DNA from: Petroclostridium sp. X23
Lineage (GTDB): Bacteria; Bacillota; Clostridia; SK-Y3
Length of the DNA: 64,000 nucleotides
Direction: 5' to 3'
NCBI RefSeq assembly: GCF_030013905.1
Contig: NZ_CP124862.1
Span: forward strand, 620,001 to 684,000
The notes below the pieces were generated by a model. That model searched no databases. It was not told the origin of the DNA and worked only from the letters and a program-made list of their open reading frames with translations. Shown piece after piece: positions 4,573 through 61,243 of this stretch (position 1 is the stretch's first letter; every line of letters starts with the position of its first letter). Both the position numbers and the translations under genes were made by a program.

Positions 4573-4903
4573 AGCTTTCTCTCCTTTCCGGTGATGTGAC
4601 TGCTTCTTGTATGTCTTGCACAACCCTTCTAAGTCGGTTTGCTTCATACTGAAAAACAGCTTTGTCAATATGCCCAATGGCATTGGCCTTAGCCGCAAGT
4701 TGATTTAAATTGTTTCCAATAGCGTGAAGCTCTCGCATCATAGAGAAGTAATCGAGAGGAGGCAGTTCCTTAGGTATATAGCCATTTATAAGTGAACGAA
4801 TAAAAGCTTCCTGCGAAAGTCCGGTTTTCTTCACCTGAGTTTTCAATCGCTGAAATTCTCTAGTATTCATACGAAATGTCACTTTTATACTTCGTTTAAG
4901 CAT
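4532..4903 (-). CDS. mobC: MobC-like relaxosome accessory protein
   Basis: 123 residues, starting after GGAGGTTATAT at 4903. The N-terminus (KRSIKVTFRMNTREFQRLK) looks like a ribbon-helix-helix DNA-binding segment. The middle (LHAIGNNLNQLAAKANAIG) is the typical MobC signature. MobC proteins bind and melt oriT so that the relaxase can nick. It is the first gene of the mobilisation operon, directly beside the hairpin-rich oriT candidate, and its 3' end overlaps the relaxase start. Confidence 0.88.
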   Translation of the reverse strand: MLKRSIKVTFRMNTREFQRLKTQVKKTGLSQEAFIRSLINGYIPKELPPLDYFSMMRELHAIGNNLNQLAAKANAIGHIDKAVFQYEANRLRRVVQDIQEAVTSPERRESYGNNSNMGCNRPP

Positions 4904-4931
4904 ATATAACCTCCTGTTCTTTTAAGGGTTT

Positions 4932-5009
4932 CAGGGATTATCCCTGACAAGCGAATAATGCTGGCATTATTCAGTGCTTGCTGCAACACAAGACATCGGT
5001 CTTGTGTTG
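4932..5009. other. Putative origin of transfer (oriT): three successive inverted repeats
   Basis: The 130 bases before mobC hold three perfect or near-perfect inverted repeats: CAGGGA/TCCCTG (4932-4946), GAATAATGC/GCATTATTC (4953-4972, extended by CAAGC at 4948-4952 and GCTTG at 4976-4980), and CAACACAAGAC/GTCTTGTGTTG with a 4-base loop (4984-5009). Such hairpins next to mobC and the relaxase gene are the usual form of a MOB_P oriT. The nick site cannot be assigned from sequence alone. The repeats also lie where the mobC promoter and any MobC operator must be. Confidence 0.6.
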
Positions 5010-5067
5010 TATATGGGGTTACGATTGTTCTCAAATACAACCGGCCGAAAAAAGAAAAAGCAGGAGA

Positions 5068-29778: not shown

Positions 29779-29988
29779 TCAGCTTAGCAGTCCGGTAATC
29801 TTGGTTACGATGCTATTCCAAATTGTAGTGATGGAATCCTGATACAGCGTCATGAACACCGCGCCCACTACAACAACAACCAACACTACGATAAGCCAGC
29901 CGGTCATTTGGTCACCATTCCTGCTTTGCAGAAGTTCTCTAACCTTTACAGATGTCATGCTTATTTTGTTTTTCAATATAGTCATCAT
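29779..29988 (-). CDS. Flp-type pilin 1
   Basis: 69 residues; CGGAGG precedes the ATG at 29988. The core SRNGDQMTGWLIVVLVVVVVGA is a leader, Gly-Asp junction and long hydrophobic helix, followed by a short amphipathic end IWNSIVTKITGLLS. Nearly identical to the next gene in its last 45 residues, so the two arose by tandem duplication. The usual Flp E-Y pair after the helix start is absent. Major pilin subunit of the Tad pilus. Confidence 0.8.
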   Translation of the reverse strand: MMTILKNKISMTSVKVRELLQSRNGDQMTGWLIVVLVVVVVGAVFMTLYQDSITTIWNSIVTKITGLLS

Positions 29989-30075
29989 AATAAATACCTC
30001 CGTTTGTTTTTAAATTTTGATTTCAAAGGAAAAGGGAAGCAATACTTCCCCTGAATCAGTACCTTATGCCTGCCC

Positions 30076-30273
30076 TTAGCTCAAAAGCCCGGTAATTTTG
30101 TCTACAATACTGTTCCAGATGGTGGTAATCGACCCTTGATACAAGGTCATGAACACTGCGCCCACCACAACAACAATCAAGACAACAATAAGCCAGCCGG
30201 TCATCTGGTCGCCGCTCGGATTTGCCAATGCGTTTCTCGCTCTCAAAAGAACGTTTGACATGTGTTTCCTCAT
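30076..30273 (-). CDS. Flp-type pilin 2
   Basis: 65 residues from MRKHMSNVLLRARNALANPSG; GGAGG lies 8 bases before the ATG at 30273. Another ATG at 30327 also has a perfect site (AGGAGG) and would add 18 residues; both may work. The mature part GDQMTGWLIVVLIVVVVGAV matches pilin 1 but the leaders differ. First pilin gene after tadC, so probably the more abundant one. Confidence 0.78.
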   Translation of the reverse strand: MRKHMSNVLLRARNALANPSGDQMTGWLIVVLIVVVVGAVFMTLYQGSITTIWNSIVDKITGLLS

Positions 30274-30382
30274 GGAATTTGTCCTCCTTTCCTCAGTGAT
30301 TGAGTTTGCAATTCTGATGTTTTTCATGGGTAATACCTCCTGAAAATGTATTTGAAAAAGGGAATTGCCCCGTTTTCACAGA

Positions 30383-31285
30383 TTAAAAAAGGCCCCCCAT
30401 TGAGTGAATCAAGTGGGAGCCAATCACATACAGCAAACTGGCAAGAGTTACTGCCACAAGAGGGATAGATGCAATTTTAACCCTGCGGGGCAGCTTATCC
30501 AGTTTCTTTTTCAATGCTTCTTTCGCCTTGATGTCCATATCCCTGGCAAGATACGCCAAGGCTTCTCCTTGGTGTTCACCACGGTACAGCCCGATGAGGG
30601 CATTTACCAGAAAGGAAACATCGGTAATTCCAAGCCGTTCATTGAAGTTTCGCAGGGCGTTTTCAATGTCTGTGGCCTTCATTTCCACGACCAAAATCGC
30701 CACATCATCCCGGAAGGCATCACTTGCCACCTTCAGGTAATCCTCGAATATCTGGATTAAATCGACCTGTACAACAGGTTTTCTATCATCCTTGATATCA
30801 TCTAGCTTATACAAGATGGAGCGGACAAAGCCCGGCAATTCCATTTCGATGCGGCGCTTCTTTTCTTTCATTTGGTCCTTGAGATCGGTCATGAAATGAA
30901 AGTATATTACTACAGCAAAAATAAGAACAATGGGTGCAAGATTTGCCATACCAATAACAATAAGCAGCGGCATAAGAATCAGGGTAAACGAAGCGCATAA
31001 AACAGCCCTGGCATAATACTCCTTGGGAGTCAGTTCCGATCCTCCGCGCCGCAGCATGGAAGCCATCCGTACTTCTTTTATAGGATCAAGGGGTATGAGA
31101 CGGGAAACCGGTTTTGCCAGAGGCATTATAAAACGGTTTAGCAGACGTTTACCCGGCTCTTCCTTTTCGGACTGCAGGCTCTTGATGTTCTTTTTCATAC
31201 TCAACTTCGGAATTTTGAGAAGCTGCCTGCATAGCAAAAAGCCTGCCGCAGTCAGCAGGACAAAAATGATAACTTGATAAAACAA
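30383..31285 (-). CDS. TadC-like inner-membrane platform protein
   Basis: 300 residues, TTG start at 31285 after AGGAGG. Hydrophobic segments at about 3-20, 105-140 and 275-298 flank a soluble helical region (ELPGFVRSILYKLDDI, AFRDDVAILVVEMKATDIENAL) of the type II secretion F family. With TadB it forms the platform on which the TadA ATPase works. It ends about 110 bases before pilin 2. Confidence 0.8.
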   Translation of the reverse strand: MFYQVIIFVLLTAAGFLLCRQLLKIPKLSMKKNIKSLQSEKEEPGKRLLNRFIMPLAKPVSRLIPLDPIKEVRMASMLRRGGSELTPKEYYARAVLCASFTLILMPLLIVIGMANLAPIVLIFAVVIYFHFMTDLKDQMKEKKRRIEMELPGFVRSILYKLDDIKDDRKPVVQVDLIQIFEDYLKVASDAFRDDVAILVVEMKATDIENALRNFNERLGITDVSFLVNALIGLYRGEHQGEALAYLARDMDIKAKEALKKKLDKLPRRVKIASIPLVAVTLASLLYVIGSHLIHSMGGLF

Positions 31286-31296
31286 CGAAAAACCTC

Positions 31297-32211
31297 CTAT
31301 CTATTTGAGGGCTTTGTCGCCTTCATAACATAAAAAGCAGTGGCAAGGGCAATCACCATCATAAGTATAATCAGCAGCTTACCAACGGCAGTTTTCGTCA
31401 GAAGGTAAAACCACTCGGCATTGGCAAACCGCATCATGGGGATAATGGAAAACATCAGGCCCGCCGTCATCAGATAATCCCTCCATACCCGCACCATCAT
31501 GCCGTCACTTTCAACCTGCATGCTTTTTGCATCGTTCATGGCCTTAATGATTGGGAATAAGGCAAATTTCAATCGCCGGTCATGGTGACAAAGAATCAAC
31601 ATCTTTACCCATTCATTAAAGTACCTGTTTTTAATCTTTTCCGACAGACGATACAGGCCATGCTCCACATTGGGATTAACTAACCGCAGCTCTGTGACAA
31701 ACTCGTCAAAAGGCGTGGGAATTCTTAAGTTTGCAGGAATGTACCTGTTCTTTTCCTCCACAAAGGTTTCCATCGCCTTGATAATATCGTCACATCCTGC
31801 GTAGGTGTTGGTGATAACGGACATGGTGTTTTCCAGCCCTTCGATTTCTTCCCGAGCAGCCGCAGAACTTTTCACCGTCAGATAAAAATACGGGGCGGGA
31901 AGCACACAGGCCGCCATAACCGCCGCCAGCCCGGTGCTGTCGAACAGCAGTATCCCTGCTGTAAAGCCTGCTGCCGAAGCCGCAAGCAACAAGATAAGAA
32001 ATTTCTTTCGTGTACAGCGTGTCTGCCTAAGGAGCGTTCCAAAGTGGATGGCAATACGTTCCGTTATTTTCAGTTTTGTGCCGGTTAAAATCAAACGTCG
32101 CTTTTTCAACGGATTTTGCTCCACCTCAAAGGGATTCAGCCCCAGCAGGAGAAACAGGGCAAGGCTGATAAAAATAAACACAGTGATAAGTGATAGATGA
32201 ATCGGGTTCAT
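31297..32211 (-). CDS. TadB-like inner-membrane platform protein
   Basis: 304 residues; GGAAGGAGG precedes the ATG at 32211. Membrane segments at about 8-25, 70-115 and 255-300 with a cytoplasmic T2SF-type helical domain between. ATGA overlap with the end of tadA. Pairs with TadC. Confidence 0.8.
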   Translation of the reverse strand: MNPIHLSLITVFIFISLALFLLLGLNPFEVEQNPLKKRRLILTGTKLKITERIAIHFGTLLRQTRCTRKKFLILLLAASAAGFTAGILLFDSTGLAAVMAACVLPAPYFYLTVKSSAAAREEIEGLENTMSVITNTYAGCDDIIKAMETFVEEKNRYIPANLRIPTPFDEFVTELRLVNPNVEHGLYRLSEKIKNRYFNEWVKMLILCHHDRRLKFALFPIIKAMNDAKSMQVESDGMMVRVWRDYLMTAGLMFSIIPMMRFANAEWFYLLTKTAVGKLLIILMMVIALATAFYVMKATKPSNR

Positions 32212-33596
32212 TCCGCACCTCCTTCCGAAAAGCGGCGGATCTCTTTTTGAGGTACACCTCCGACCAAAAGCCTTTCGGCAAGAGCCGGAGAAATATTCCC
32301 CATGCGCCGGTGACTGCCTACCGCCTTGGTAATCCTGCCTTCCTTATCCCTTTCGTAGTGGTCAACCGCATATTTATACAAGGTGCTGCCCATAACTTCA
32401 CCATTTTGTACTCCGGTGGCCTCAAAGATTTCCATGTATTTACGAGAATGGTCAGGTAGTTGCATCTTAAAAAGCATAATCGGAAAGGCTTCCACGATGT
32501 TTTTGAGAAGCCGTTCCTCCGACAGAGAGGTCCCAGCCTCCAGGCACATGGTCAAGATGCGGTCATAGGCTGTTCGCGCGCTATTGGCATGGAGAGTGCT
32601 GACGATGGTGTGCCCCGTCCGTCCGGCCTCCTGCACGGTGAGGGCCTCCTTCCCACGCATTTCGGCAGGTACAAGGATTTCCGGGTGCAGCCGCAGGGAG
32701 AGCTTAAGTAAATCCAGCATGGTAACAGGGTTCGGCTCCTCCTTGGTAAGAAGGTGGATAACGTCATTTAGCATCACACCGTTTTTATCATATTGCGCCA
32801 AAGACAGTTCGCGGGTGTCCTCAATGGTCACAATGCGCTTTTCATGGGGAATACAGCTTAGAATATAGCCCATATCGGCAGTTTTGCCGCTTCCGGTAGC
32901 TCCGGCAATGGCCACCGATACACCATTGTTTACGCATAGGGTGAGAAAGTCCAATTCCTCTGCCGTAGCTGTTTCCCATTCGACAAGATTTTGCCGTGTG
33001 ATGTAGGATGGCTTTTGCTTTCGGACGGAAGCAATGGCTCCGGCATCCGGGTCAACACAAGGGGAGATAGCTCCCGACATGCGTATACCTCTTGCAATGA
33101 AGCTGTCCCCGATGGGCTTGCTGCCGTCCAGAATTACATTTCCGAACCGGCTCATCTTTCTAACGATGTTGGCGCAGGCTTCCGCATTGCTGAAGGTTTC
33201 ATTCAGACGGACTTTCCTGTCCTTATACAGCACCCAAGCACCGCCGGAGCCGTTGACGTTTATTTCCTCCGTATCATTATCCTGCAAATAGGGAGATAAC
33301 AGTCCCATACCGGCCATATCAAAGTACGCTGCGTCCACCAGCTCGGAAATGTTTCGAAGGTCCTTAGCTACCAGCTGCTCTTGGTTCAGGTAGCGCATGA
33401 TGAGGTCTTTGAGCTTTCCTTCGGCCTCCTGCGAATAAAGCACCTGTGCCAGCTCTGCCGAATGGTTTTTGGCGATAAGCCGCTGCAGCTTGTCGAGGAT
33501 TTCCCCATAGTCCTGGGCTTTAGTGATTTGACCGCTGTCAGAGCGACGTTTATTGGCACGGTAAATCAAATCGTTTACTGAAAATCTGCTGTTCAT
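32208..33596 (-). CDS. TadA/CpaF-type secretion ATPase
   Basis: 462 residues; GGGGGTGAG precedes the ATG at 33596. Walker A VAIAGATGSGKTADMGYIL (about 232), Asp box RIVTIEDTRELSL, Walker B-like ILVPAEMRGKEALTVQEAGRTGHTIVSTLHANSA, all standard for CpaF/TadA hexameric ATPases. It drives Flp pilus assembly and, in some cases, retraction. Four-base ATGA overlaps with both tadZ and tadB show a tightly coupled operon. Confidence 0.92.
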   Translation of the reverse strand: MNSRFSVNDLIYRANKRRSDSGQITKAQDYGEILDKLQRLIAKNHSAELAQVLYSQEAEGKLKDLIMRYLNQEQLVAKDLRNISELVDAAYFDMAGMGLLSPYLQDNDTEEINVNGSGGAWVLYKDRKVRLNETFSNAEACANIVRKMSRFGNVILDGSKPIGDSFIARGIRMSGAISPCVDPDAGAIASVRKQKPSYITRQNLVEWETATAEELDFLTLCVNNGVSVAIAGATGSGKTADMGYILSCIPHEKRIVTIEDTRELSLAQYDKNGVMLNDVIHLLTKEEPNPVTMLDLLKLSLRLHPEILVPAEMRGKEALTVQEAGRTGHTIVSTLHANSARTAYDRILTMCLEAGTSLSEERLLKNIVEAFPIMLFKMQLPDHSRKYMEIFEATGVQNGEVMGSTLYKYAVDHYERDKEGRITKAVGSHRRMGNISPALAERLLVGGVPQKEIRRFSEGGAE

Positions 33597-34327
33597 GGCT
33601 TCTCACCCCCGCAGATATCATCAACAATTTTCTCCAACATCTTGCCGTAACGCCTGCAAGGTTTATCATTGTAAAAATATATGGGTGTTCCGGCATTCTC
33701 CAATTCTCCGGCCCGTTTGACATAGGGCAGCTCATAGGCAAAGGGCAGTTCCGTCATACTGCGGTAGGTCTTATCGTCAAACTCTCCATTCGGAGCCAGC
33801 AGAATATGAGTTTGCTTTTCTCCGATGTGCAGCTCCTGTACAAAATCCGAAATGCCCTTATGCCACATCTGCGCCGCTATGGACGGCCGATGGAGGGTAA
33901 ATATTCTTTCAGCCAGCCATAGGCCCACGCTGGATACCGGATTGTTTATCTCCGCAGCTCCGTCCACAAGGAGTATGTCGAAGACAAGGGATGCGGTATT
34001 AATCATTTGCTCCACTTCCTCAATAGTCACTGTATCGCAGAGCAGCCCGGTATAGTGCGTGGGCGCGGATAGAAAGAACAGGTTTTTACTTTCTTCACAA
34101 TTCACAAATTTTTCTCCGATATTGGGGTTATCATCGCTCAATGCTTCATATAACCCCTTTTCCGGTGGTACGTCTTGACCGAAAAAGATTTGCAGATCTC
34201 CATATGTCAAATTGGAGGATATGAGGCCCACCAGGCAGTCCCGTTTGGAAAGGGCGCAAGCTAGATTGACTGCAAAGGTGGTTTTACCACTGTTGTTGCC
34301 GCCCCAGACGGTAATAATTCTACTCAT
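33593..34327 (-). CDS. TadZ/CpaE-like ParA-family ATPase
   Basis: 244 residues from MSRIITVWGGNNSGKTTFAV; GAGGTG precedes the ATG at 34327. The deviant Walker A (GGNNSGKTT) and DILLVDGAAEINNP identify a ParA/MinD-type ATPase of the CpaE/TadZ group, which positions the Tad machine at the pole. No N-terminal receiver domain, so it is the short form. Overlaps cpaB by 8 bases and tadA by 4. Confidence 0.82.
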   Translation of the reverse strand: MSRIITVWGGNNSGKTTFAVNLACALSKRDCLVGLISSNLTYGDLQIFFGQDVPPEKGLYEALSDDNPNIGEKFVNCEESKNLFFLSAPTHYTGLLCDTVTIEEVEQMINTASLVFDILLVDGAAEINNPVSSVGLWLAERIFTLHRPSIAAQMWHKGISDFVQELHIGEKQTHILLAPNGEFDDKTYRSMTELPFAYELPYVKRAGELENAGTPIYFYNDKPCRRYGKMLEKIVDDICGGEKP

Positions 34328-35027
34328 GGCCCACACCTCTTTTTTCAAAGATTAAGTGCATTTTTCCAGTATATTCAGCCTGGATAAGTTTCTCTGCCTG
34401 TACCTCAGTAACAATAAGGGTGATGGCCTTGGGAACAGGATCACCGGTGGATGATTGACTTTCAGACTGTTGTTCCCGAACCTCTGCGGTGTCCTGTGTT
34501 CGGGCATTCTCTACGCTGTATACCTCCAGTCCGTGCAATTCCGGGTAGAGTATGACTTGCGGGGAGGTATCCTGACCACCGGATGCTCCCTCTAAAAACA
34601 CCGCCACTGTTACCGCGTCACCGCTTTGCAGATGGGAGGAAAGCCCCGCGGCGGCACTTGCTACGCTGATGGTGACAAGACGTTGCTCATTTTCTGCTAT
34701 ACGGTCTAGCTTTTCATCAGCAACAAAATCCCCAAGCTTTTGAGGAAACAAGTAGTCACCTTTGGCTATGCTGGTCTTTGCTACCTTCCCTATAATCAGT
34801 GCTTTGTCGTTAATCACATCTTCCGGCAGACCAAATTTACCGACCTCCACCTGGGTAAGATATCTGTCCTCCATCCTGGTACCCGCCGGAATGTCCTCCG
34901 ATGCCCTCAGCACCATGACGGTTGCATCCTTGTTCGCATAAAACCTTGGCAAAAGCACAAAGGAAACGGCTGCCGCAACAATGATGCAGAGGGCGCTCAG
35001 AAATATTCGATTTTTTAGTATCTTCAA
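34320..35027 (-). CDS. CpaB/RcpC-like SAF-domain protein
   Basis: 235 residues, TTG start at 35027 with AGGAGG 11 bases upstream. One N-terminal membrane anchor (IFLSALCIIVAAAVSFVLL) then a SAF domain (SEDIPAGTRMEDRYLTQVEV, IAKGDYLFPQKLG). CpaB/RcpC proteins are periplasmic in Gram-negatives; here it would be extracellular and attached to the membrane, helping to guide the pilus through the wall. First clear gene of the Tad operon. Confidence 0.8.
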   Translation of the reverse strand: MKILKNRIFLSALCIIVAAAVSFVLLPRFYANKDATVMVLRASEDIPAGTRMEDRYLTQVEVGKFGLPEDVINDKALIIGKVAKTSIAKGDYLFPQKLGDFVADEKLDRIAENEQRLVTISVASAAAGLSSHLQSGDAVTVAVFLEGASGGQDTSPQVILYPELHGLEVYSVENARTQDTAEVREQQSESQSSTGDPVPKAITLIVTEVQAEKLIQAEYTGKMHLIFEKRGVGHE

Positions 35028-35092
35028 GCTGTTCTATACCTCCTTCCGTTATGGTTAATAAAAAACTCCCCGTATTCTCACAATAAGCACTA

Positions 35093-35251
35093 TTACGGGC
35101 CGAAAAAGAAAGTGGAATCGCGTTCCTGCTTTTCGCTCTTTTCCCTTGCAATAGGCTCATTGCTTTCCCGCCTTGCCGTTTTGTGGATAATAGGGATTCT
35201 TCGGATTAGAGTTCGGAAGGTTTTAGGCTTCTTTTTTGCTGTCTGCTTCAT
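35093..35251 (-). CDS. 52-residue basic protein at the head of the Tad operon
   Basis: Starts MKQTAKKKPKTFRTLIRRI, with AAAGGAG before the ATG at 35251; a longer frame would read through the hairpin and G-tract upstream and is unlikely. Strongly basic N-terminal half, mixed tail ending FFFGP. No family recognised; it may bind nucleic acid. It lies 65 bases before cpaB. Confidence 0.5.
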   Translation of the reverse strand: MKQTAKKKPKTFRTLIRRIPIIHKTARRESNEPIAREKSEKQERDSTFFFGP

Positions 35252-35283
35252 AAAAGGCTCCTTTCTATGTAATTTCACTGTAT

Positions 35284-35323
35284 TACCAGCCGAAAGACAG
35301 GAATATTTCTTTTTCGGCTGGTA
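35284..35323. terminator. 12-bp hairpin between par genes and Tad operon
   Basis: TACCAGCCGAAA (35284-35295) and TTTCGGCTGGTA (35312-35323) form a perfect 12-bp stem with a 16-base loop. In the direction of the genes it lies after the cysteine-rich small gene and 33 bases before the 52-residue gene, so it could terminate or attenuate read-through from the par genes. No long U-run follows on the minus strand; on the plus strand GTTTTT follows. Confidence 0.55.
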
Positions 35324-35331
35324 GTTTTTCA

Positions 35332-35352
35332 GGGGTGGGGTGTGGGGAGGGG
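35332..35352 (+). promoter_or_regulatory. G-quadruplex motif (G4-T-G4-TGT-G4-A-G4)
   Basis: Four runs of four G with loops of 1, 3 and 1 bases lie on the plus strand, which is the template for the Tad operon. This is a canonical, very stable quadruplex pattern, unusual in DNA of this base composition. It lies 8 bases from the 12-bp hairpin and about 80 bases before the first small gene of the Tad operon. Confidence 0.6.
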
Positions 35353-35424
35353 AAAACCGCAACGCTGCTGTGTGACACCTGCAAATAAATAGGCAGACTA
35401 CCCCCTTGGTGTAAAATCATTTCG

Positions 35425-35598
35425 TTAATCATCCACTATGACACATTTTTCTTTGCTGCATTTTCCCTTATGCTTATCAAAGTGCAGACAATGCTCACAA
35501 TCTCGTCCTTTCGCAGGTTTAGCAGACTCGTGGTCATGCTTCGGTTTTTCCTGCATCATGCGCTCGTATGCGCGCAGCCGCCCTTCTGTAAAGTACAT
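35425..35598 (-). CDS. 57-residue cysteine-rich protein (zinc-ribbon-like)
   Basis: AAAGGAGGTG precedes the ATG at 35598. The C-terminal half CEHCLHFDKHKGKCSKEKC has a CxxC...CxxxxC pattern suited to one zinc ion; the N-terminal half is a charged helix (MYFTEGRLRAYERMMQEK). Small proteins of this kind are common in clostridial elements; function unknown. Lies about 80 bases after parB. Confidence 0.65.
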   Translation of the reverse strand: MYFTEGRLRAYERMMQEKPKHDHESAKPAKGRDCEHCLHFDKHKGKCSKEKCVIVDD

Positions 35599-35679
35599 GG
35601 AAGCACCTCCTTTCAAAAAGGGCATAAAAAAACATCCTCAACCATGAGAATGAATTTACTCGTCGTGATTATTTTCCGT

Positions 35680-36612
35680 TTATCGTTCCTGCTCCCGCTG
35701 CCGCTTCTTGTACCAGCTCTCAAGCAATTGAACGATCAAATCCTCCTTTTGTTTCTCAGTAAAGCTTTTTGGGAAAAAGCGGTCGATGCGTTCACGCCGG
35801 ACACTTAATTTTTCCTTTTGATTGGGCTTTTTTTCGGTGAGAATGGAAAAAATGACATCCATATTCAACCGCCCGTCCTGGCTTAACTTTTTCATGCGCT
35901 GAGCTTGAGAGAGAGAAGGCGTACAATCCTCCGACTGCATAGTATCGTGTAGGTTCTGCTGTTCCTTTTCGGTTAAGTAGGAAAGCTCCACAGCTGGACG
36001 GAAAGCAATCTGATTATTGTCTACCATTTCCAAAATAGAAGGATTAAGTTCTGTAAGTCGGATAAACCTGTGTACTTGCCTCCCACTTTCGCCTGTAGTT
36101 TCGCCCAATAAATCTGCACTTATTGACTTCTCGACCAATGGTCGCGAAGTTAAATCTGTCCTCTGTCCCTGCCGTTTCATGGCTTCCAGTTTCATTTTGT
36201 AGGCAAAAGCTTTTTCACTTGGCAAGATGCTTTCTCTTTGCAGATTACTGTCAACCATGATAATTGTGGCTTGATCGTTATCCAATTCACGGACAATACA
36301 AGGCATGATTTCCTTCCCCGCAAGCTCGCTCGCTTTTTTTCGCCGATGTCCGGCAACCATTTCATAACCGCCTTCCGGTTTCGGTCGTACAAGCCCCGGA
36401 ACTAAAACGCCATACTGCTTAACGCTATCCGCCATTTCCAGCATAGCTTCATCCGCTTTCACCTTAAAAGGATGATTAGGAAAATCGCTTATTTCCGACA
36501 AGGGAATATCCAGTACCTTTTCCCGCTGACTATCTGCACGACTTTCTTCGGTGGAAAACAGATCATCTACTGATGTCAGTTTTATGCTGTTTCGCACGTC
36601 TTTTTTCGCCAA
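35680..36612 (-). CDS. parB: ParB-family partition protein
   Basis: 310 residues, TTG start at 36612 with AAAGGAGG nine bases upstream. The ParB N-terminal nuclease-like/CTPase domain is clear: DIPLSEISDFPNHPFKV, YEMVAGHRRKKASELAG (GHRR motif), ATIIMVDSNLQRE, then a helix-turn-helix (DLLGETTGESGRQVHRFIRL). The C-terminus is basic (EKQKEDLIVQLLESWYKKR). Overlaps parA by 50 bases. In ICEs such pairs help keep the excised circle. Confidence 0.9.
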   Translation of the reverse strand: MAKKDVRNSIKLTSVDDLFSTEESRADSQREKVLDIPLSEISDFPNHPFKVKADEAMLEMADSVKQYGVLVPGLVRPKPEGGYEMVAGHRRKKASELAGKEIMPCIVRELDNDQATIIMVDSNLQRESILPSEKAFAYKMKLEAMKRQGQRTDLTSRPLVEKSISADLLGETTGESGRQVHRFIRLTELNPSILEMVDNNQIAFRPAVELSYLTEKEQQNLHDTMQSEDCTPSLSQAQRMKKLSQDGRLNMDVIFSILTEKKPNQKEKLSVRRERIDRFFPKSFTEKQKEDLIVQLLESWYKKRQREQER

Positions 36613-37387
36613 TATCCTGCACCTCCTTTGTAAAGGCTTGATAGGCTTTAGCAGCTATTCCATGCGGGTCAAACGCATAAATGCTTTTTCCCTGCGCGCT
36701 TGTTTCAGCCGCCCGAATGGACAGGGGAATTTCCGTTTGAAAAACTCTCAGCTTGTCGCCATAGTCCCGCCGCAGTATAAAGGAAATATCCTTTGCAAAA
36801 TTTGTGCGGTTATCTACCATTGTTAGCAGCACACCGTCAATGGTCAGCTTAGGATTGATCTGCCTTCTCACACGAGCAATGGTCTGCAATAGCTGTGTCA
36901 TTCCTTTAGCGGGCAGATAATGGGCCTGAACGGGAATAATAACGCTATCCGCAGCGGCAAGGGCATTAATGGTCATCATGCCAAGAGAGGGCATACAGTC
37001 GATCAGCACATAATCATATTTGTCTTTGACCGTGTTGATATATGTTCGCAGTACCGTTTCCCGGCTCATAGTGTTAACCAGCGAAACCTCAATAGCAGAC
37101 AGTTCAATATTACCCGGCATCAAGTCAACGCCTTCCACATGGTGCAAAATTCCTTCGCTGGCTTCATACTGTTCCTCCATCATGGCCTTGGTGAGTATGG
37201 TCGCCAGTGAAACGGGAATATTGTCCGGCTCTTGATATCCCAATGAATCTGTCAGATTCCCTTGTGCGTCCGCGTCCACCAGCAGCACCTTTTTACCCTG
37301 TACCGCAAGGCCGATACCAAGATTAACCGTGGTCGTTGTTTTCCCCGTGCCGCCTTTCTGATTAGCAAGGGCGATTACTTTTGACAC
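36563..37387 (-). CDS. parA: ParA/Soj-family partition ATPase
   Basis: 274 residues, GTG start at 37387 after GGAGG. MSKVIALANQKGGTGKTTT contains the deviant Walker A (KGGTGKTT); DYVLIDCMPSLGMM is the Walker B region. Standard length for Soj-type ParA without an extra DNA-binding domain. It moves ParB-bound DNA along the nucleoid. First gene of the par/Tad block, just after the large terminator at 37409-37451. Confidence 0.93.
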   Translation of the reverse strand: MSKVIALANQKGGTGKTTTTVNLGIGLAVQGKKVLLVDADAQGNLTDSLGYQEPDNIPVSLATILTKAMMEEQYEASEGILHHVEGVDLMPGNIELSAIEVSLVNTMSRETVLRTYINTVKDKYDYVLIDCMPSLGMMTINALAAADSVIIPVQAHYLPAKGMTQLLQTIARVRRQINPKLTIDGVLLTMVDNRTNFAKDISFILRRDYGDKLRVFQTEIPLSIRAAETSAQGKSIYAFDPHGIAAKAYQAFTKEVQDIGEKRRAKQHKTDISR

Positions 37388-37408
37388 TTGAATTTCCTCC
37401 TTTCACGC

Positions 37409-37451
37409 AAAAAGCCGCCTGCTTTATATGAAATAAAGCAAACGGCTTTTT
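37409..37451. terminator. Strong bidirectional hairpin terminator
   Basis: AAAAAGCCG (37409-37417) pairs with CGGCTTTTT (37443-37451), with an inner TGCTTTAT/ATAAAGCA stem. A/T runs on both sides make it work in either direction. It ends the Qat/NTase operon coming from the right and insulates parA. 37452-37595 shows nothing else. Confidence 0.85.
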
Positions 37452-37595
37452 ATAATTTTTTAGATTTTTAGAGAAATATAAGTCATGAAATTATGTTCTC
37501 TTATTCACTTATTCATTCGATATTTTCCTATTATAAATATGGAGAACTCGATTGCTTGCATAAAAGACTTCAAGTAAAATCTTTCAGACTTTAAT

Positions 37596-38330
37596 TTATA
37601 TTGAATCAAGAGCACGAGCATAACACTCAATATCCATTGCTGGTATTGTTGCAAGTTTTTGTAATTCCATTAAAAGCTTTAAAAAGAAATATATGAATGA
37701 TTCTTCCTGTGTACTTTTTTCAATAGCAATAGGATTTACATTATAATCAACTTTAAAAGAACCGCATTGTAAGGCACAACCAATGTCAATCCTTTGAATG
37801 TCAGGTAACGAAGTTATATGTTCTTCAAAACTTTTACCTAAAGGTTCTGTCCAAGTACTTGTTAGCGTTAATATTCCTGAAATAATATTATTATGCGGTT
37901 TGGGTGGGTAAAATCCTCCAGCATAGGGTATAGGAGCAGATGTTCTTCGTAAAGAGCGTACACTTTCTGCTTTTTTTCCTGCATATTCTATGTATTCTTT
38001 GCTTAATTCTTGTTTAACCTCAAATATTGCATAAACGCTTTCTGCTGGAATATATATGACTGAATCTTGTTTGAAAGCAAAAGGTGTATATTGCTGGTCG
38101 TAAATAACAACATCAATTTGATCGCTAATATTATTATCACAATCTATAATAAATGCTTTATCTACACAATATCTTTTGGGGAGATAATCTTTAAGCCACT
38201 GAATCCAATTTAATTCAGATGCATCACCTTTGGCCCCTGGATGTGCTATTGACCTTCTATTCGTTGAAAGCTTAGCAATCATTTGAGTTTGTAAATCATA
38301 AAATAGTTCCTTCAATTGAATTTTTCGCAT
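37596..38330 (-). CDS. DUF6602-like protein with PD-(D/E)xK nuclease-like core
   Basis: 244 residues; AAAGGTGG lies 7 bases before the ATG at 38330. The N-terminus HPGAKGDASELNWIQWLKDYLP (Glu39), then ISDQIDVVIYDQQYTP (Asp73) and ESVYAIFEVKQELS (Glu104-x-Lys106) follow the E...D...ExK order of restriction-endonuclease folds, as I recall for DUF6602. The C-terminal third has TSTWTEPLGKSFEEHI and is probably structural. It is the last gene of the operon, 13 bases after the nucleotidyltransferase. Likely a nuclease effector; no experimental function is known to me. Confidence 0.65.
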   Translation of the reverse strand: MRKIQLKELFYDLQTQMIAKLSTNRRSIAHPGAKGDASELNWIQWLKDYLPKRYCVDKAFIIDCDNNISDQIDVVIYDQQYTPFAFKQDSVIYIPAESVYAIFEVKQELSKEYIEYAGKKAESVRSLRRTSAPIPYAGGFYPPKPHNNIISGILTLTSTWTEPLGKSFEEHITSLPDIQRIDIGCALQCGSFKVDYNVNPIAIEKSTQEESFIYFFLKLLMELQKLATIPAMDIECYARALDSI

Positions 38331-38343
38331 ATTCAAACCACCT

Positions 38344-39108
38344 TTACCAGATTATATCTCCCCAAGACTGTGCATTTCTGCTCTCTTTCGCTTTTTTGGC
38401 TATTGCTTCTTTTTCATACTTATATAGGTCATCAGAAATTATATTATTGGAATTAGATGGATCAATTATGGTTTTATCTACAAAAGAATCTCTGAGATAT
38501 TCCAATACCGTTATAAAATTATTAGCTGGCTGATTTTTGTTTTTATTATACAAAGCCTCAATTACTGTAAGCTCAAGATAAATAGAGGGAAAATCTAATT
38601 TTTGTAACTTACTCCAAATTTTCATGGCTATGATTTCGGATAATCTTCCAGAAGCTTTTACAAGGTTTATATGATTATTGATGTTTGTTTTTGTCCATGT
38701 ATCCACTTTGCTTCGATATAAACTATGGTCATTAGTATTTCCTAAGTGTTTCTTTCCAGGGACAAGGTCAATGCTATGTCCACCATAATTTACACCAATA
38801 GATACATTCTGTTTTCTGGCAGTAATTTTATGAGCAACGACTTTATTGTATAAACTTGTATATATTTCTTTAAGAGTATTTGTAGTATCCGATTTTAAAG
38901 AAATAAATAAATCAATGTCTGATGAAAGATTTATTGCTGTTCCTTTTGCCCGCGACCCAGAATAATATACATTATTTAATTGTATTCCAGCCCACTCTTT
39001 TATGATATTTAAAAGGGGATCGACAACTAATATTTTTGTTAAAGCATCTACATCACCTTTGACATTATATTTGTTAATAATCGAATTTACATATTCATCA
39101 GCAGTCAT
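38344..39108 (-). CDS. Pol-beta-superfamily nucleotidyltransferase (CD-NTase/CCA-like)
   Basis: 254 residues; AAAGGACA precedes the ATG at 39108. The catalytic pattern is intact: YYSGSRAKGTAINLSSDIDLF (GS at 51-52, Asp64, Asp66) and HSIDLVPGK (Asp114). A helical C-terminal domain follows (EIIAMKIWSKLQKLDFPSIYLELTVIEAL), like the PAP/OAS1 substrate-binding domain of CCA-adding enzymes and CD-NTases. It could make a nucleotide signal or modify a nucleic acid or protein. It starts 29 bases after qatD and is followed within 14 bases by the DUF6602-like gene, so the pair is probably co-expressed with Qat. Confidence 0.7.
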   Translation of the reverse strand: MTADEYVNSIINKYNVKGDVDALTKILVVDPLLNIIKEWAGIQLNNVYYSGSRAKGTAINLSSDIDLFISLKSDTTNTLKEIYTSLYNKVVAHKITARKQNVSIGVNYGGHSIDLVPGKKHLGNTNDHSLYRSKVDTWTKTNINNHINLVKASGRLSEIIAMKIWSKLQKLDFPSIYLELTVIEALYNKNKNQPANNFITVLEYLRDSFVDKTIIDPSNSNNIISDDLYKYEKEAIAKKAKESRNAQSWGDIIW

Positions 39109-39137
39109 TTTTCTTGTCCTTTCCTTTCTAATAATAT

Positions 39138-39863
39138 TTAGCCCTCTACTAGCCTTATAAAGTTTTGTGAAATTTGGTCTCTAACTCTATCTGAATTAAT
39201 TTTAAGTAAGTCACTAAGACACACATAAACTTTGCTTAATTTATCGTAAGTATATTTTTTACCATCAACCTTTGTAAATGGTCCATCACTTTCAATTAAT
39301 AACCTTTCTATTGGTATCCGCTCAATAATTTTTCTACCTTTATCTGAATTAATCATATTTGCATTAATTGAAAAATACGTTCCAAACAATAAGAACTTCT
39401 TTAGCCAAACTTCATCACCACTATACCAATGCAATACTACCCTTGAATTTGCATTATTGTTTAAAATTTCATGCAATATTTTTTCAGCCTTCCTACAATG
39501 CACAGACATAATTTTATCAGTGGAATTTTTGCAAATGAAGTCAAATATCTCTATTTGCTTGTCTTTGTTTTTATAATACTTAGGAGAAAAATCTAGTCCT
39601 ACCTCACCAACATATTTAGTTCGTTTCAAATTTTTTAAAAATGTGCTTTTATTAAACGAAACATCATTGACACATTGTGGATTATACCCAAGACCAAATT
39701 GCACATATTTAGTTACTGAATACATGTCCATACAGGCTTCAAATATCTCAGGCTGATTTGTAACACACAATGTATGTTGGCAAAATTCATTTATACCATG
39801 ATATATTTGTGAATGATTAGGATAAAAATCTAAATGAAAATGCATGTCTATCAATTTACCCAT
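39138..39863 (-). CDS. qatD: QatD: TatD-like metal-dependent hydrolase of the Qat anti-phage system
   Basis: 241 residues. Metal ligands of the TatD amidohydrolase fold are in place: LIDMHFHLD (His8, His10), VGEVGLDFSP (Glu), KIMSVHCRKAE (His), VVLHWYSGDE (His) and LLIESDGPF (Asp). TatD enzymes are 3'-5' exonucleases. In the Qat system a TatD-like protein is the fourth component, and its loss abolishes defence. Start overlaps qatC by 8 bases. Confidence 0.88.
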   Translation of the reverse strand: MGKLIDMHFHLDFYPNHSQIYHGINEFCQHTLCVTNQPEIFEACMDMYSVTKYVQFGLGYNPQCVNDVSFNKSTFLKNLKRTKYVGEVGLDFSPKYYKNKDKQIEIFDFICKNSTDKIMSVHCRKAEKILHEILNNNANSRVVLHWYSGDEVWLKKFLLFGTYFSINANMINSDKGRKIIERIPIERLLIESDGPFTKVDGKKYTYDKLSKVYVCLSDLLKINSDRVRDQISQNFIRLVEG

Positions 39864-41298
39864 TCCTTAAACCTACTTTTACATATTCTAATAAATTCAT
39901 ACCATTTATATCAGCTTGTTTTTCTATCATTACTTTTATTTCTTCCATAGATTTCATATATACCCTCGCGAAACGTTGTATATCATCTAGATTTAATCCA
40001 CCTAAATTTATCATTTTATTTATATAATAATCAAAGCTTCCGTTTTTCAAGTATTCATGTAGCGCAAATAGTACAGCTTTTAAATCTTTAGTCCTACCAT
40101 TTTCCGGATTTGCATATTTGCTGTTCCTAATAAATGCAGTACTTATTTTATAGTCCTTTATAAAAGTGTCGAGATACTCGTCATCAACTTCTATGTTATT
40201 TAAGGAAGCCCTACGTATTAAACAAGGGAAGCAATAACCACAATTTCTAGGTCTGCCCGGAACCCCTTTTGCACCACGCATTGGATGGGAGCAAGAAATA
40301 GTTCGACCGGCACCCTTAATAAATGCATTAGATTCTTTTACCATTTCGACAATCTCACCCTTTGTTTTTAAAGCAAAGAAATTTTCGACCTTATGCTTAA
40401 TCCCTAGTTTCTGCAAAATTTTATTATAGTGGTTTAAAAAATAAATGTGTGTTGTTCTGGTGCTGCAACTACCTAACCTACTAGGTGTCAACGGCATATT
40501 CAAACCAATAAAGCCATTTTCGGGTATGTATACTGGAACTTCTTCGCCTATTAAGGAAGCAGTTGCTAATGCTGCTGCAAGAAATAAGAATGAACGACTT
40601 CTGCTTGTATCTTCTCTAAATTTTTTCTTCAAACTTTCATCAATATTCCTCGGATGCCTTGGATCTGTGTAAAACACAATTCTATCAACATTTCTTTCTA
40701 CATATTCATTTTGAATTAACTCAAACAATTCTTCTATTCTATTTCCGAGAGTATAATATTCCCTGCAGCCAACAAAACAGATGTTTTTATCTTCCTCCAA
40801 TAATTTAATTGCTCCTGAAAAAGAGTCAAGTCCTCCTGAAAATAGAGCAACTCCATCAAAATCTTTTTCAATTATGGAGCCATTTCCCTGATGTAGGTAT
40901 TCACGGTAATGCTGTTCCGTTTTGCGAAAACTAAAGTTCCAATTATCTCCACTTAGGAAACGTAGAATTGCTTCAAGTTCATCTTTAACAGCTAACCACT
41001 TATCTATATCTATTACTGGAACTGAAACCTCTAAAATTCTTGTCCAATTGTCATAAGTTTCTCCAGAATAAGTACCCGATCGAGGAACTCTTTTATCAGC
41101 TGCATATACACTTGCAGCTATTACAAGTAAATCCTCACAAACAGATTCTAATTTATCCTTTGCAAATCTTCCCCATATTTCGTCAAAATTAGTTTTTAGA
41201 TTTGACTTTGTACTATCATCTAACATATCAAATCTAATTGCCCCATTAAAATCATTTGAAGGACTTTCTACGATAGTTTTATTAATCCAAATTTTCAT
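39856..41298 (-). CDS. qatC: QatC: QueC-like PP-loop enzyme of the Qat system
   Basis: 480 residues. GGAGG is 6 bases before the ATG at 41298. The PP-loop ATPase motif GVALFSGGLDSFSGA (about 156) and the C-terminal cysteine cluster SCSHPMRGAKGVPGRPRNCGY with CFPC mark a QueC homologue with an added N-terminal domain of about 140 residues. QueC makes preQ0; QueC-like enzymes in defence loci are thought to attach a deazaguanine-type group to a protein partner (from memory, not checked). Third gene of qatABCD; overlaps qatB by 17 bases. Confidence 0.9.
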   Translation of the reverse strand: MKIWINKTIVESPSNDFNGAIRFDMLDDSTKSNLKTNFDEIWGRFAKDKLESVCEDLLVIAASVYAADKRVPRSGTYSGETYDNWTRILEVSVPVIDIDKWLAVKDELEAILRFLSGDNWNFSFRKTEQHYREYLHQGNGSIIEKDFDGVALFSGGLDSFSGAIKLLEEDKNICFVGCREYYTLGNRIEELFELIQNEYVERNVDRIVFYTDPRHPRNIDESLKKKFREDTSRSRSFLFLAAALATASLIGEEVPVYIPENGFIGLNMPLTPSRLGSCSTRTTHIYFLNHYNKILQKLGIKHKVENFFALKTKGEIVEMVKESNAFIKGAGRTISCSHPMRGAKGVPGRPRNCGYCFPCLIRRASLNNIEVDDEYLDTFIKDYKISTAFIRNSKYANPENGRTKDLKAVLFALHEYLKNGSFDYYINKMINLGGLNLDDIQRFARVYMKSMEEIKVMIEKQADINGMNLLEYVKVGLRNG

Positions 41299-57693: not shown

Positions 57694-59256
57694 TCATACT
57701 TCAATTTCAATGCCAGATTTAAAGCTGATCACAAAGTGTTCTTCGTACACCGTGACGTTTTGGATCAGCTTCCTTACTAAAGTGTCATCATACAGTAGGG
57801 TGCGATATTTGTTCCTGCGGATAAATCCTATCAGTTCGTTGATCCGCTCATTCTCACCACTTAAGGATGCATCTTCCACAAGAAGGCTCTGTCGCTCTTC
57901 ACGAAGCCTATCTATCTCGTCTGCGAGAAAATCGTAATCCTTTCCCTTATTGGCGAGGTTGATTACTTCCTTCTGCTTTTCTTCAAGCAAAGCATTAATC
58001 TCTGAAATCTTATATTCCGTGGTATCACCGATTACCGCATGTATATTCTCTTCCAGTATTCTTATCATGTTGTCCCCACCGGCAAGCAATCTGTTAATGG
58101 CAGTCATTACTGCATCATATAATTCACCTTCTTTTACTGTTCGGTTCTTACACGTTTCAGGGCCTTGCTCGATTCTCGTAACACATCGCCATACAAACTC
58201 TTTTCTACCGCGTATATTCCAATACACCCGTCTGTAAATGTCCCCGCAATCTCCGCAGAAGGTTATGGTGCTCAAAGCGTATTTACTGCTATAGAGTCTT
58301 TTGTTTTTATCTGCCCCCGTGTAAATATTATTCCTTCGATGAAGTTCTTCCTGAGCCTGTAAAAAAAGTTCCTTCGGTATGATTGCCTCATGGCTGTTTT
58401 CAACATAATACTGTGGGACATGGCCTTCATTCTTGACTCTTTTCTTTGTTAGAAAATCCACGGTGAAGGTCTTCTGTAATAGGGCATCCCCGATGTACTT
58501 TTCGTTCAAGAGAATCTTCTTTATGGTCTCCGGTCGCCATCTTGGTTTTCCTGCAGCTGTTAAAATACCGTCCTTCTCAAGATCCCTACCAATGCCTGCT
58601 AGGCTTTTACCCTCAAGGTACTCTCTGTAAATGCGCTTAATGATTTCAGCCTCTTCAGGAACAATTATTAGGTTTCCTTCTTCATCTTTTGTGTACCCCA
58701 TAAATCGATTGTGGTTGACCTGGACTTTCCCTTGCTGATATCGATACTGAAGTCCAAGTTTAACATTCTGAGAAAGGCTCTGACTTTCTTGCTGCGCGAG
58801 GGATGCCATAATGGTCAGAAGCACCTCCCCCTTGGCATCCATTGTATTGATGTTCTCTTTTTCAAAAAATACGGATATGTTCTTGTCCTTCAGCTGCCTA
58901 ATATATTTTAGGCAATCCAGAGTGTTACGGGCAAATCGACTGATGGACTTTGTAATAACTAGATCGATGTTCCCCTCCATGCACTCATCAATCATGCGGT
59001 TGAACTCTTCTCGTTTTTTCGTGTTCGTGCCTGAAATGCCGTCATCTGCAAATATGCCAGCAAACTCCCATTCAGCATTTTTCTTTATAAACTCGGTGTA
59101 ATGAGCTACCTGCACCTCATAGCTTGAGTTCTGCTCTTCAGTTTCTGTAGAAACACGGCAATAAGCAGCAACACGCAGTTTCTTTACTTTTTCTTTTGCG
59201 GCTGTACTTCCGACCCTTTTTCGTGCTGGAATTACAGTTATGTTTTTCTCTGCCAA
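57694..59256 (-). CDS. Large serine recombinase 1
   Basis: 520 residues, TTG start at 59256 after GCGAGG, two bases after the previous stop. Resolvase domain with [19 protein letters not shown] (catalytic Ser36) and [19 protein letters not shown]; Recombinase domain; zinc ribbon [16 protein letters not shown] plus [12 protein letters not shown]; coiled coil after about 400. Large serine recombinases integrate and excise ICEs and phages at specific sites. Last gene of a three-gene operon; the attachment site normally adjoins this end, so 57.5-57.7 kb is where to look. Confidence 0.92.
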
Positions 59257-59257
59257 T

Positions 59258-59674
59258 TTAAACCTCGCTTTCTATCAGACTATACAGGTACTCCGCTCGT
59301 CCTACTGGATCTTCTGGAAGTTTCCCTTCCGATTTTCTCATTTTAAATCGCTCTATAGGTGGGGGAGCACTGAAAGCTGCAAGCTCTGCAATCCTCCCTA
59401 GATCCTTCGCACGTTTACTTCTAACCTCTTCAGCCTTATCAAACGTCTCTTTATCAATGATTGCGGGGTATACGTCATTTCCAAGATAGTTGACGTTTTT
59501 CAAAATAAGTCCCATGGATGAATGAGTCTTCTGAATACCAGCCTGCTCACCAGCCACAGCAAGGGAAAGCCCGGAAATGTACTTTTCAAAGAAATCCCTT
59601 ACTTGATCCGCAGCCCTTTCATCAACGGTAACAACTCCGTCCGTAATTGCATATCCGTATGGTACATAGGCCAT
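59258..59674 (-). CDS. Recombinase-domain protein lacking the catalytic domain
   Basis: 138 residues; GTGAGG precedes the ATG at 59674, which is next to the previous stop. [36 protein letters not shown] and [20 protein letters not shown] match the middle 'Recombinase' (PF07508-type) DNA-binding segment of large serine recombinases. The N-terminal resolvase domain and zinc ribbon are absent. Tight packing between two full recombinases suggests an accessory DNA-binding subunit rather than debris. Confidence 0.75.
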
Positions 59675-61243
59675 TTACCTCACCACCCTTTCTTTAAGGG
59701 AAAGCCCACATTTTAATTTAAATGTTAGTTCATCCCTTGAATTTACAATGATGTTTTCTACATACTTTTCAAATGCCTCGTCTGTATAGTTGCCATCAAA
59801 CTTATCTTTCGAAACATACTCAAGAAGCGCTTTTATCTCGTCTGCCTGTGATGTTCCACTTGTAAATGACATGACCAGGTTTGTCTTCTCAGTGGTTAGC
59901 TTTTTCATTTCGCTATCAAGAACATTTCGTTCTTTACTAAAAAGTGCCGGTTCAAGAAACCCTTTAGTCATAAGACCAATCAGTGTATTGCGTTCTTCGG
60001 TTAATTGCTCCATGCGTTTATCTATGGCATCAATTCTTGCAAGATCGCATTCTTCATCAATCTTGTTTATAGAATCATAAAGTGGCTTCAGTATTAGCTT
60101 TTTGCTGAATGCGAGCTTATTCATCATGGTTGAGAATGTTGCTTTTATCTCTCCATCACGCAAAAATAACATGGAGCAGCTGTCCTTGTCTTCAATGTGT
60201 CCTTTGCAGCTCCAAGCAATATAACTTCTGCCAACAGAGTAGTTTGTTCTTCTCTTGAATTTACTGCCGCACTCTCCACATAGGATTCTGCCACTTAGCA
60301 CATACCTGTTTTGATAAGCTTTCTTATTAGCAGTTTTGCTCATAGATTTTGCTCTTTGCGTTATCAGCTTTTGAGCCTTGGAAAATACTTCTCTGCTGAT
60401 AATCGGTTCGTGATGATCCTTGCAGTAGAACTGATCTTTCTCTCCATAGTTAATGTGTCGATTGAAGTTGCTATCCGTGTAAGTCTTTTGGAAAAGCACA
60501 TCACCTTTGTATTTTTCGTTACGAAGCATATCAATCACCGTACCAGAACTCCAATGATTGCCCCTTCTTGCAGGGATTTTGTCTCTGTTCAGGCCTTTTG
60601 CGATAACACTTCCACCTTTCCCTGAAAGGCACTCTGCAAAAATACGTTTGATTATTTCAGCTTCTTCAGGAACAATAACCATCAAACCATTTACGTTTGC
60701 ATAGCCATATGGCGGAGTGCCAATAATGTAACTGCCATTTTGAAATTTTTTACTGATTGACCATGTTGTGTTCTGTGAAATAGACGCGGACTCTTCAGCA
60801 GCAAAACCAGATAAAATAGAAAGCATTAATTCACTTTCCATATCACCTGTATTCAGATTTTCTTTTTCAAAATAAATATAAACACCGATATCCATTAGAT
60901 GCCTTACCAGCTCTAGGCAATCCGTGGTATTTCGTGCAAAACGGCTGATGGATTTGGTGATAATAAAATCAATCCTATTACTTTCACAATCACGAATCAT
61001 CCGGAGAAGTTCAGGTCGTTTTTCCTTCTTGGTGCCCGATATGCCTTCGTCATAATAAAGCCCGGCAAATTCCCATTCTGGATTGGATTTAATATAGTTT
61101 TCATAGTGTTCCCGCTGAGCTTTAAGGCTTACCAGTTGGTCATCGCTATCCGTTGAAACCCTTGCATAAGCGGCAACTCGAAGTTTGTTTTTTGATAGCT
61201 GTGATTTGGGCAGTTCATCTATTTTCGTTATCTTTTTCATCAT
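59675..61243 (-). CDS. Large serine recombinase 2
   Basis: 522 residues; GTGAGGTGAG precedes the ATG at 61243. KLRVAAYARVSTDSDDQLVS (catalytic Ser30), [20 protein letters not shown], zinc ribbon LCGECGSKFKRRTNYSVG and CKGHIEDKDSC, then coiled coil. Clearly homologous to recombinase 1 but diverged. The trio forms one translationally coupled operon and is presumably the integration module of the element that extends to the right. Confidence 0.92.
   Translation of the reverse strand: MMKKITKIDELPKSQLSKNKLRVAAYARVSTDSDDQLVSLKAQREHYENYIKSNPEWEFAGLYYDEGISGTKKEKRPELLRMIRDCESNRIDFIITKSISRFARNTTDCLELVRHLMDIGVYIYFEKENLNTGDMESELMLSILSGFAAEESASISQNTTWSISKKFQNGSYIIGTPPYGYANVNGLMVIVPEEAEIIKRIFAECLSGKGGSVIAKGLNRDKIPARRGNHWSSGTVIDMLRNEKYKGDVLFQKTYTDSNFNRHINYGEKDQFYCKDHHEPIISREVFSKAQKLITQRAKSMSKTANKKAYQNRYVLSGRILCGECGSKFKRRTNYSVGRSYIAWSCKGHIEDKDSCSMLFLRDGEIKATFSTMMNKLAFSKKLILKPLYDSINKIDEECDLARIDAIDKRMEQLTEERNTLIGLMTKGFLEPALFSKERNVLDSEMKKLTTEKTNLVMSFTSGTSQADEIKALLEYVSKDKFDGNYTDEAFEKYVENIIVNSRDELTFKLKCGLSLKERVVR

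Follow-up and report, generated by a model that had tools for sequence, protein, structure and literature searches.

The window analysed here, a stretch of 64,000 nucleotides from Petroclostridium sp. X23, whose genome is a single contig of 5.5 Mb, encodes a relaxase with NikA/MobC as well as serine recombinases, which places it inside an integrative conjugative element (ICE). Three inverted repeats in a row were seen by eye ahead of nikA/mobC and the relaxase (4910-5020, minus strand) and likely represent the oriT. The element described in the following is positioned 3' of parA-parB and of a small Cys-rich open reading frame (ORF). It comprises a box, a C-rich tract and a hairpin, and is followed by a 52-aa ORF and the Tad pilus genes (Table 1). 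Two adjacent Flp-type pilin genes (29779-30327), which are 70% alike over 64 residues, were also observed.

Table 1 Features of the element and its neighbourhood, in coordinates of the window.
Feature	Position	Strand	Remark
Core tract CCCCTCCCC-ACA-CCCCACCCC (GGGGTGGGG-TGT-GGGGAGGGG on the plus strand)	35332..35352	-	Mirror repeat, quadruplex motif
Purine-strand 5' half GGGGTGGGG, proposed third strand of a triplex	35332..35340	+	Suggested by the substitution pattern and the R-motif rule (available portion of PMC4666352)
TGT hinge (ACA on the minus strand)	35341..35343	+	Centre of symmetry
Purine-strand 3' half GGGGAGGGG, proposed duplex target	35344..35352	+	Homologous half pure purine in 14/14 tract types
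Hairpin TACCAGCCGAAA-N16-TTTCGGCTGGTA	35284..35323	-	Some hairpin kept in close relatives
Upstream box TTTTACACCAAGGGGGTAGTCTG	35394..35416	-	Conserved in aligned relatives
Inverted copy of hairpin arm TTTCTTTTTCGGC	35099..35111	-	At the end of the 52-aa ORF
52-aa Lys/Arg-rich ORF (MKQTAKKKPKTFRTLIRRI...FFFGP)	35093..35251	-	Good ribosome-binding site, relatives exist
66-aa Cys-rich ORF (...FDKHKGKCSKEKC...)	35425..35625	-	Immediately 5' of the element
parB (ParB_N, HTH_ParB)	35680..36612	-	Constant upstream neighbour of the element
parA	36563..37387	-	
cpaB/rcpC	34320..35027	-	First gene of the Tad block (30076-35027)
MOBP-like relaxase	3181-4698		In window
NikA/MobC	4532-4903		In window
Serine recombinases	57694-61243		In window

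Read directly, the plus strand of the tract is GGGG-T-GGGG-TGT-GGGG-A-GGGG, i.e. four G4 runs with loops of 1, 3 and 1. A gap of 8 bases separates it from the hairpin, the arms of which (35284-35295 and 35312-35323) pair over 12 bp with 100% complementarity around a 16-nt loop. Both features are exactly as described in an earlier note on this DNA. Its statement that such a motif is rare also holds, since the window has a single occurrence of four G4 runs and 200 dinucleotide shuffles produced no such case. The pattern of three G4 runs with short loops gave two overlapping matches compared to a mean of 0.09 in 100 shuffles, only one of which contained at least two. The genes around the element lie on the minus strand, which makes the G strand their template, again as claimed, and a slowing of polymerase by the motif is possible. 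The earlier note had further placed the motif in intergenic DNA ahead of the pilus genes. It is intergenic but not directly ahead of them, because the 52-aa ORF separates the hairpin from cpaB. The box, which forms a third conserved block, and the inverted copy of the hairpin arm had both been overlooked.

The arm sequence GCCGAAAAAGAAA at 35306-35318 and its inverted copy flank the 52-aa ORF. The copy is kept as DNA in three relatives in which the reading frame differs (L048, L056, L057), and its retention out of frame points to selection as DNA or RNA. The ORF itself has no counterpart after the element in L063 and L066. A promoter-like site on the plus strand (35390-35417) is directed away from the tract; the scan that detected it would be expected to give 1.2 such sites by chance.

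Conservation in close relatives

A 181-base query covering the element was compared with 391 genomes of the class. Some match was found in 25 of them, and at seven other loci the match covered the core or the larger part of the region. The alignment with these seven loci revealed three nearly invariant blocks, namely the box TTTTACACCAAGGGGGTAGTCTG, the tract CCCCTCCCCACACCCC[A/T]CCCC and the hairpin arm with its loop GCCGAAAAAGAAATAT. Between box and tract the letters vary and the length barely does: it amounts to 63-64 bp in all 13 measurable rows out of 17 examined, and the tract-hairpin spacing is 13-14 bp in 16 of the 17, a few of these rows being near copies of each other. Furthermore, 84,980 GTDB species genomes were scanned with a hairpin pattern that is silent about the tract. 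This gave 15 matches, including Lutispora, Acetivibrio mesophilus, Thermotalea, Geosporobacter and Syntrophomonas, and among the 15 distinct sequences of the window and these relatives 14 carry the exact tract. The Syntrophomonas locus (L066) has kept the hairpin, with a degenerate tract and no mirror repeat around ACA. The hairpin of close relatives mostly shows one mismatch or an altered right arm, and all four G runs are present in every non-degenerate copy of the closest clade.

With at most one mismatch, the tract occurs eight times in the 391 class genomes, each time at the element; in the Petroclostridium genome itself, one copy at this level was found among the matches listed at up to three mismatches. 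Tract, hairpin and box are thus kept in related ICEs. The earlier note had proposed exactly this comparison, and the lack of conservation that it named as a refutation is not what we observe.

Several observations were made alongside. The box alone (TTTTACACCAAGGGGG[TC]AGTCTG), without a C tract, is present in three other ICEs (L003, L012, L028; near 1501-1530). There, a TraG-like gene is followed by a small HTH gene, and the box lies 15-20 nt past the stop codon of the latter. A contig labelled Deltaproteobacteria (L064) contains this clostridial ICE region, with an 80% identical ParB among other parts, which probably reflects a binning error or a recent transfer. Outside the window, the own genome carries short CCCCACT heptamer arrays (e.g. 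CTCCCCACTCCCCACTCCCCACT) at L175-L177 and L179.

Association with parB

The order parA-parB-Cys-rich ORF-element-Tad is common in close relatives. In L065 the same genes and the element are followed by other ICE genes without Tad, L062 carries the element without adjoining Tad genes and continues into an SNF2-like gene, and in L063 most neighbours are lost with the element retained. More distant homologues of the element mostly lie directly after parB, ahead of unrelated genes. Over all lineages, the genes downstream include Tad, large adhesin-like proteins, a lipoprotein and others. The element lies on one strand relative to parB. We therefore reject a regulation specific to Tad, and the tie to the pilus operon that had been suggested for the motif is not borne out, as L065 and L062 keep what is a parB-side element without neighbouring Tad genes.

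An orphan copy (L258, about 1390-1600) has box, tract and arm motif, and no ParB match was obtained in the 1.6-kb stretch around it. It lies between terminator-like sequences, with a promoter-like start and a terminator recognised by eye, and is possibly a free-standing unit. Two matches of the class search with two mismatches (L259, L261) have no parB and were taken as chance, and the same was concluded for L041 from its flank, one of three viral_contigs matches to the exact tract (L041-L043). The window region had no match in the plasmid and phage collections, nor did L086 in the plasmids.

Mirror symmetry in distant relatives

ParB homologues were detected in 78 of the 391 class genomes. 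Many of those that share 48-61% identity are followed downstream by a homologous C-rich tract. A related box often precedes it and arm motifs often follow, which by eye form spaced direct repeats ACYRRCYG in outgroups. Examples of such tracts are CCCCCTCTCCACACCTCACCCCC, CCCCCTCTCACACTCTCCCCCC, CCCTTTCTCACACTCTAACCCC, CCCCTCCTTACAATCCACCCCC and TCCCTCCTTACAAACCTCCCT, all of them mirror repeats around ACA and mostly incapable of forming a classical quadruplex. Other natural types are CCCCCTCTCACACTCTCCCCC, which is without four G runs, and CCCCTCCCCACACCCCTCCCC.

For counting, a tract was defined by a centre ACA, C-rich composition (9 or more C among 18 letters) and no more than one G, so that centre and C-richness were imposed during collection. 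By this rule, 38 of 176 parB-downstream regions (two being repeats of the same place) contain a tract, representing 14 distinct types. The other 138 contain none, some of them being cut off at contig ends. Four loci fall outside the rule: L078 and L089, which are centred on ATA and look symmetric by eye, L090, which is rich in AT, and L066, which lacks the symmetry. A first set had required a pure-pyrimidine left half, and dropping this requirement gave the same tracts.

Across the 14 types, the two halves agree as mirror images (C or not C) at 125 of 126 positions, with 86 C-C, 21 T-A, 18 T-T and a single C-T pair. No purine occurs in the left half of the C-rich strand, although the rule permitted it. 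On the purine strand the mirror pairs are hence G-G, A-A and T-A, and in all 21 T-A pairs the T is located in the 5' half. The 12 types of the first set score 107/108. This value was never reached when right halves were permuted among the types (mean 74.2, maximum 97 in 100,000) or when the letters of the right half were shuffled (mean 63.6, maximum 83 in 20,000), and a direct-repeat register as an alternative scores only 79. A second set was drawn from viral_contigs and from further genomes in the phylum; its 70 loci yielded 11 tracts, all symmetric, which added only two new types. When the rule was tightened to allow no more than one G in the right half, a scan of both strands of L070-L252 and the window gave 44 matches, 43 of them fully symmetric.

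We further placed the tracts on a ParB tree of 36 rows, from which L226 (the window) and L235 (identical to L093) were left out as repeats; 20 of its 32 inner branches are well supported. The 25 changes in left halves and 26 in right halves require just 26 joint changes, and independent pairs on the tree changed in the same direction in 20.9 cases, in the opposite direction in 0 and in none in 0.06. Because positions within a half are not independent, there were fewer separate events than these counts imply; with whole tracts as labels, the tree needs 15 changes for 14 labels. Judged from these comparisons, the property that is kept is the mirror symmetry around ACA and not the quadruplex.

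Proposed structure and function

The core of the element is a pyrimidine/purine mirror repeat of 21-23 bp centred on ACA/TGT with co-varying halves. We tentatively favour, at somewhat less than even confidence, the reading that it is a cis-acting DNA site of the ICE, 3' of parB, that folds back as H-DNA when unwound. In underwound or single-stranded DNA, the purine strand would bend back at a hinge of three bases, so that its 5' half runs antiparallel along the purines of the 3' half. The result would be a short purine-motif triplex of G.G-C, A.A-T and T.A-T triads, in which the other C-rich half has no pairing partner. The R-motif rule, as given in the available portion of PMC4666352, allows G on G-C and A or T on A-T, and the accessible part of PMC9483843, a review, names the same orientation and the same need for a mirror repeat. 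The co-variation fits this rule, which makes a fold-back at the DNA level its most economical cause. The tracts show the sequence features of purine-motif H-DNA, i.e. mirror repeat, short hinge, third-strand letters and a pure purine target, apart from the one C-T exception; as a counterpoint, nine to ten triads are short for H-DNA. On balance, we regard it as slightly more probable than not that the predicted fold-back structure forms. A pyrimidine-motif triplex, which needs two pure pyrimidine halves, was rejected in view of the 21 A in right halves.

Like known H-DNA, the element is a homopurine/homopyrimidine mirror repeat with a short hinge and substitutions that follow G.G-C, A.A-T and T.A-T. 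It differs in its short arms (9-13) and in the kind of evidence, namely that at a constant genetic location the halves co-vary from lineage to lineage. The TMECO, BoxC and PIT motifs of enterobacteria resemble the element as conserved, intergenic, G/C-rich bacterial DNA capable of forming triplexes. TMECO, according to the available portion of PMC4666352, is a Y-R-RH motif formed within one strand; E. coli MG1655 has 23 copies of it and none was found on mobile elements, whereas the element is a two-half mirror repeat, present in single copy, on ICEs and beside parB. We did not assign the element to TMECO/BoxC, as the tract strand has two Y halves and the G run of the box lies 63 bp away and is, by eye, absent in several lineages. 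The single own-genome copy, at no more than one mismatch among the matches listed, also differs from the many copies of those motifs.

The wider proposition, that natural selection maintains an H-DNA switch 3' of parB in ICEs of Clostridia, its halves having co-evolved by reverse-Hoogsteen rules, is put forward as a candidate explanation that we hold slightly less firmly. The motif in the window is one lineage's version of the element just 3' of parB, and under the wider proposition the quadruplex, which the same purine strand can also form in this lineage, would be a lineage-specific alternative. It may additionally be speculated that, where the partition genes end and the following ICE operon begins (Tad here; adhesin, lipoprotein or other genes elsewhere), the folded tract and the neighbouring hairpin form an obstacle or a landing site that is sensitive to supercoiling. 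The position of the element suggests this obstacle role for polymerase, which we consider rather doubtful: no promoter or terminator shared among lineages follows the element, so that position is what speaks for a role in transcription. A promoter scan found few sites downstream of the tracts.

Alternative explanations

The proposed function is of modest confidence, and its main rival is a site for maintenance of ICE DNA, such as a replication origin, a single-strand initiation site or a partition site, with the tract as its centre and box and arm repeats as protein sites. The centromere site of plasmid par loci can lie 3' of parB, and the element shares with such sites both this position and a composite architecture. 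The constant place 3' of parB, the spacings kept by the close clade (63-64 bp and 13-14 bp), the spaced direct repeats of outgroups and the presence of one copy per ICE would all suit this analogy. Yet the element differs in containing no palindromic ParB site, and it is missing near most parB homologues; conversely, the orphan copy has no parB. A scan of 33000-40000 for palindromes (arms of at least 7, gap up to 2) gave none in the element and one match at 37245-37259, which led us to reject a palindromic parS here. An oriT at the element was likewise rejected, since relaxase and NikA/MobC are 30 kb away and typical oriT-like inverted repeats lie ahead of them. Altogether, a maintenance site appears unlikely, although it fares better than the explanations that follow.

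A better parS candidate was found within parB itself. The sequence encoding its interdomain linker contains a 27-bp inverted repeat, AACTTCGCGACCATTGGTCGAGAAGTC (36125-36151, minus strand). In other ICEs the arms of this repeat differ and stay complementary, with 180 of 195 arm positions matching in 15 sequences, compared to a mean of 136.1 and a maximum of 163 in 100,000 permutations. This co-varying palindrome may be a parS embedded in a coding region.

The element could also act as RNA. Its minus-strand transcript would then provide the following operon with an unstructured C-rich stretch and a hairpin that serve as an attenuator, an antitermination leader or a rut site. In line with this, the C-rich, G-poor strand is the RNA strand, the hairpin is kept, terminators follow some outgroup tracts (three of 35 in the strict scan, others by eye) and the orphan copy has its promoter-like start and terminator. 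RNA base pairing, on the other hand, cannot account for mirror co-variation of C with C and of T with A or T, and purine-motif triplexes do not form in RNA according to the available portion of PMC4666352. Folding of the whole region was no better than that of shuffles (z 0.38), and that of the 156-nt part reached only z -1.9. The element belongs to no Rfam family: the window gave nothing at the gathering score, and none of 11 relatives had a match at the element with E of 1 or less. The Rfam pemK RNA (RF02913) was detected with 51 bits close to one relative of the element (L093, 3335-3392, minus strand). The window hairpin has no T run and the scan finds no terminator at the window element, so that an intrinsic terminator was rejected. 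With strict sites after only three of the 35 tracts in relatives, we do not claim a shared transcription boundary. An RNA function consequently seems quite improbable.

About as improbable, and marginally more so, is the G-quadruplex as the functional form, at least in this lineage, where a four-layer structure on the template strand would block polymerase or initiate recombination. The four perfect G4 runs of the window and their retention in the non-degenerate copies of the closest clade speak for it. Among the 14 tract types, four runs of at least three G occur in three and four runs of at least two G in ten; the remaining four fit neither rule and have kept the mirror symmetry. What is conserved is thus the element, not the quadruplex as such. 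Moreover, a quadruplex needs equal run lengths and not mirrored single A and T positions, and the short loops are conserved also in letter, which a pure quadruplex does not require. The earlier note had drawn a parallel to pilin variation in Neisseria. The pilE motif of Neisseria gonorrhoeae likewise is G-rich, lies near a pilus locus and can form a quadruplex, and four runs of at least three G are present in the window as well. The pilE system needs a promoter for a G4-associated small RNA and silent pilin donors, as stated in the available portion of PMC3547852; no promoter of that sort is evident at the tract. The parallel fails on the pilin genes, as the own genome contains two adjacent intact Flp genes and no silent copies: a search of the genome returned the Flp gene, its adjacent 70% paralogue and a third, non-significant match (E 0.375). 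The element, in addition, belongs to parB and usually has no quadruplex motif.

That the tract is low-complexity DNA conserved by descent, its symmetry an accident of C-rich composition or strand slippage, was already disfavoured and is highly improbable, since the shuffle, permutation and tree tests argue against it even though C-rich sequence eases symmetry and the tract hardly varies in the close clade.

Discussion

Searches of an open-access library gave no description of such an element. The comparison of sequences shows a real, conserved element, a co-varying mirror repeat with a predicted structure that in one lineage takes the form of the quadruplex motif. Since mirror repeats often arise by chance and are seldom conserved, the functional use of H-DNA by bacteria is an open question. 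The element offers one address, 3' of parB in ICEs, at which the arms have changed independently in many lineages, together with a rule by which working mutants can be predicted. The question thereby becomes testable in the way RNA helices once were, by breaking one half and restoring the mirror in the other. If the proposed reading is true, comparative genomics alone would reveal a non-B DNA structure, and quadruplex calls from single genomes could mask a different conserved property.
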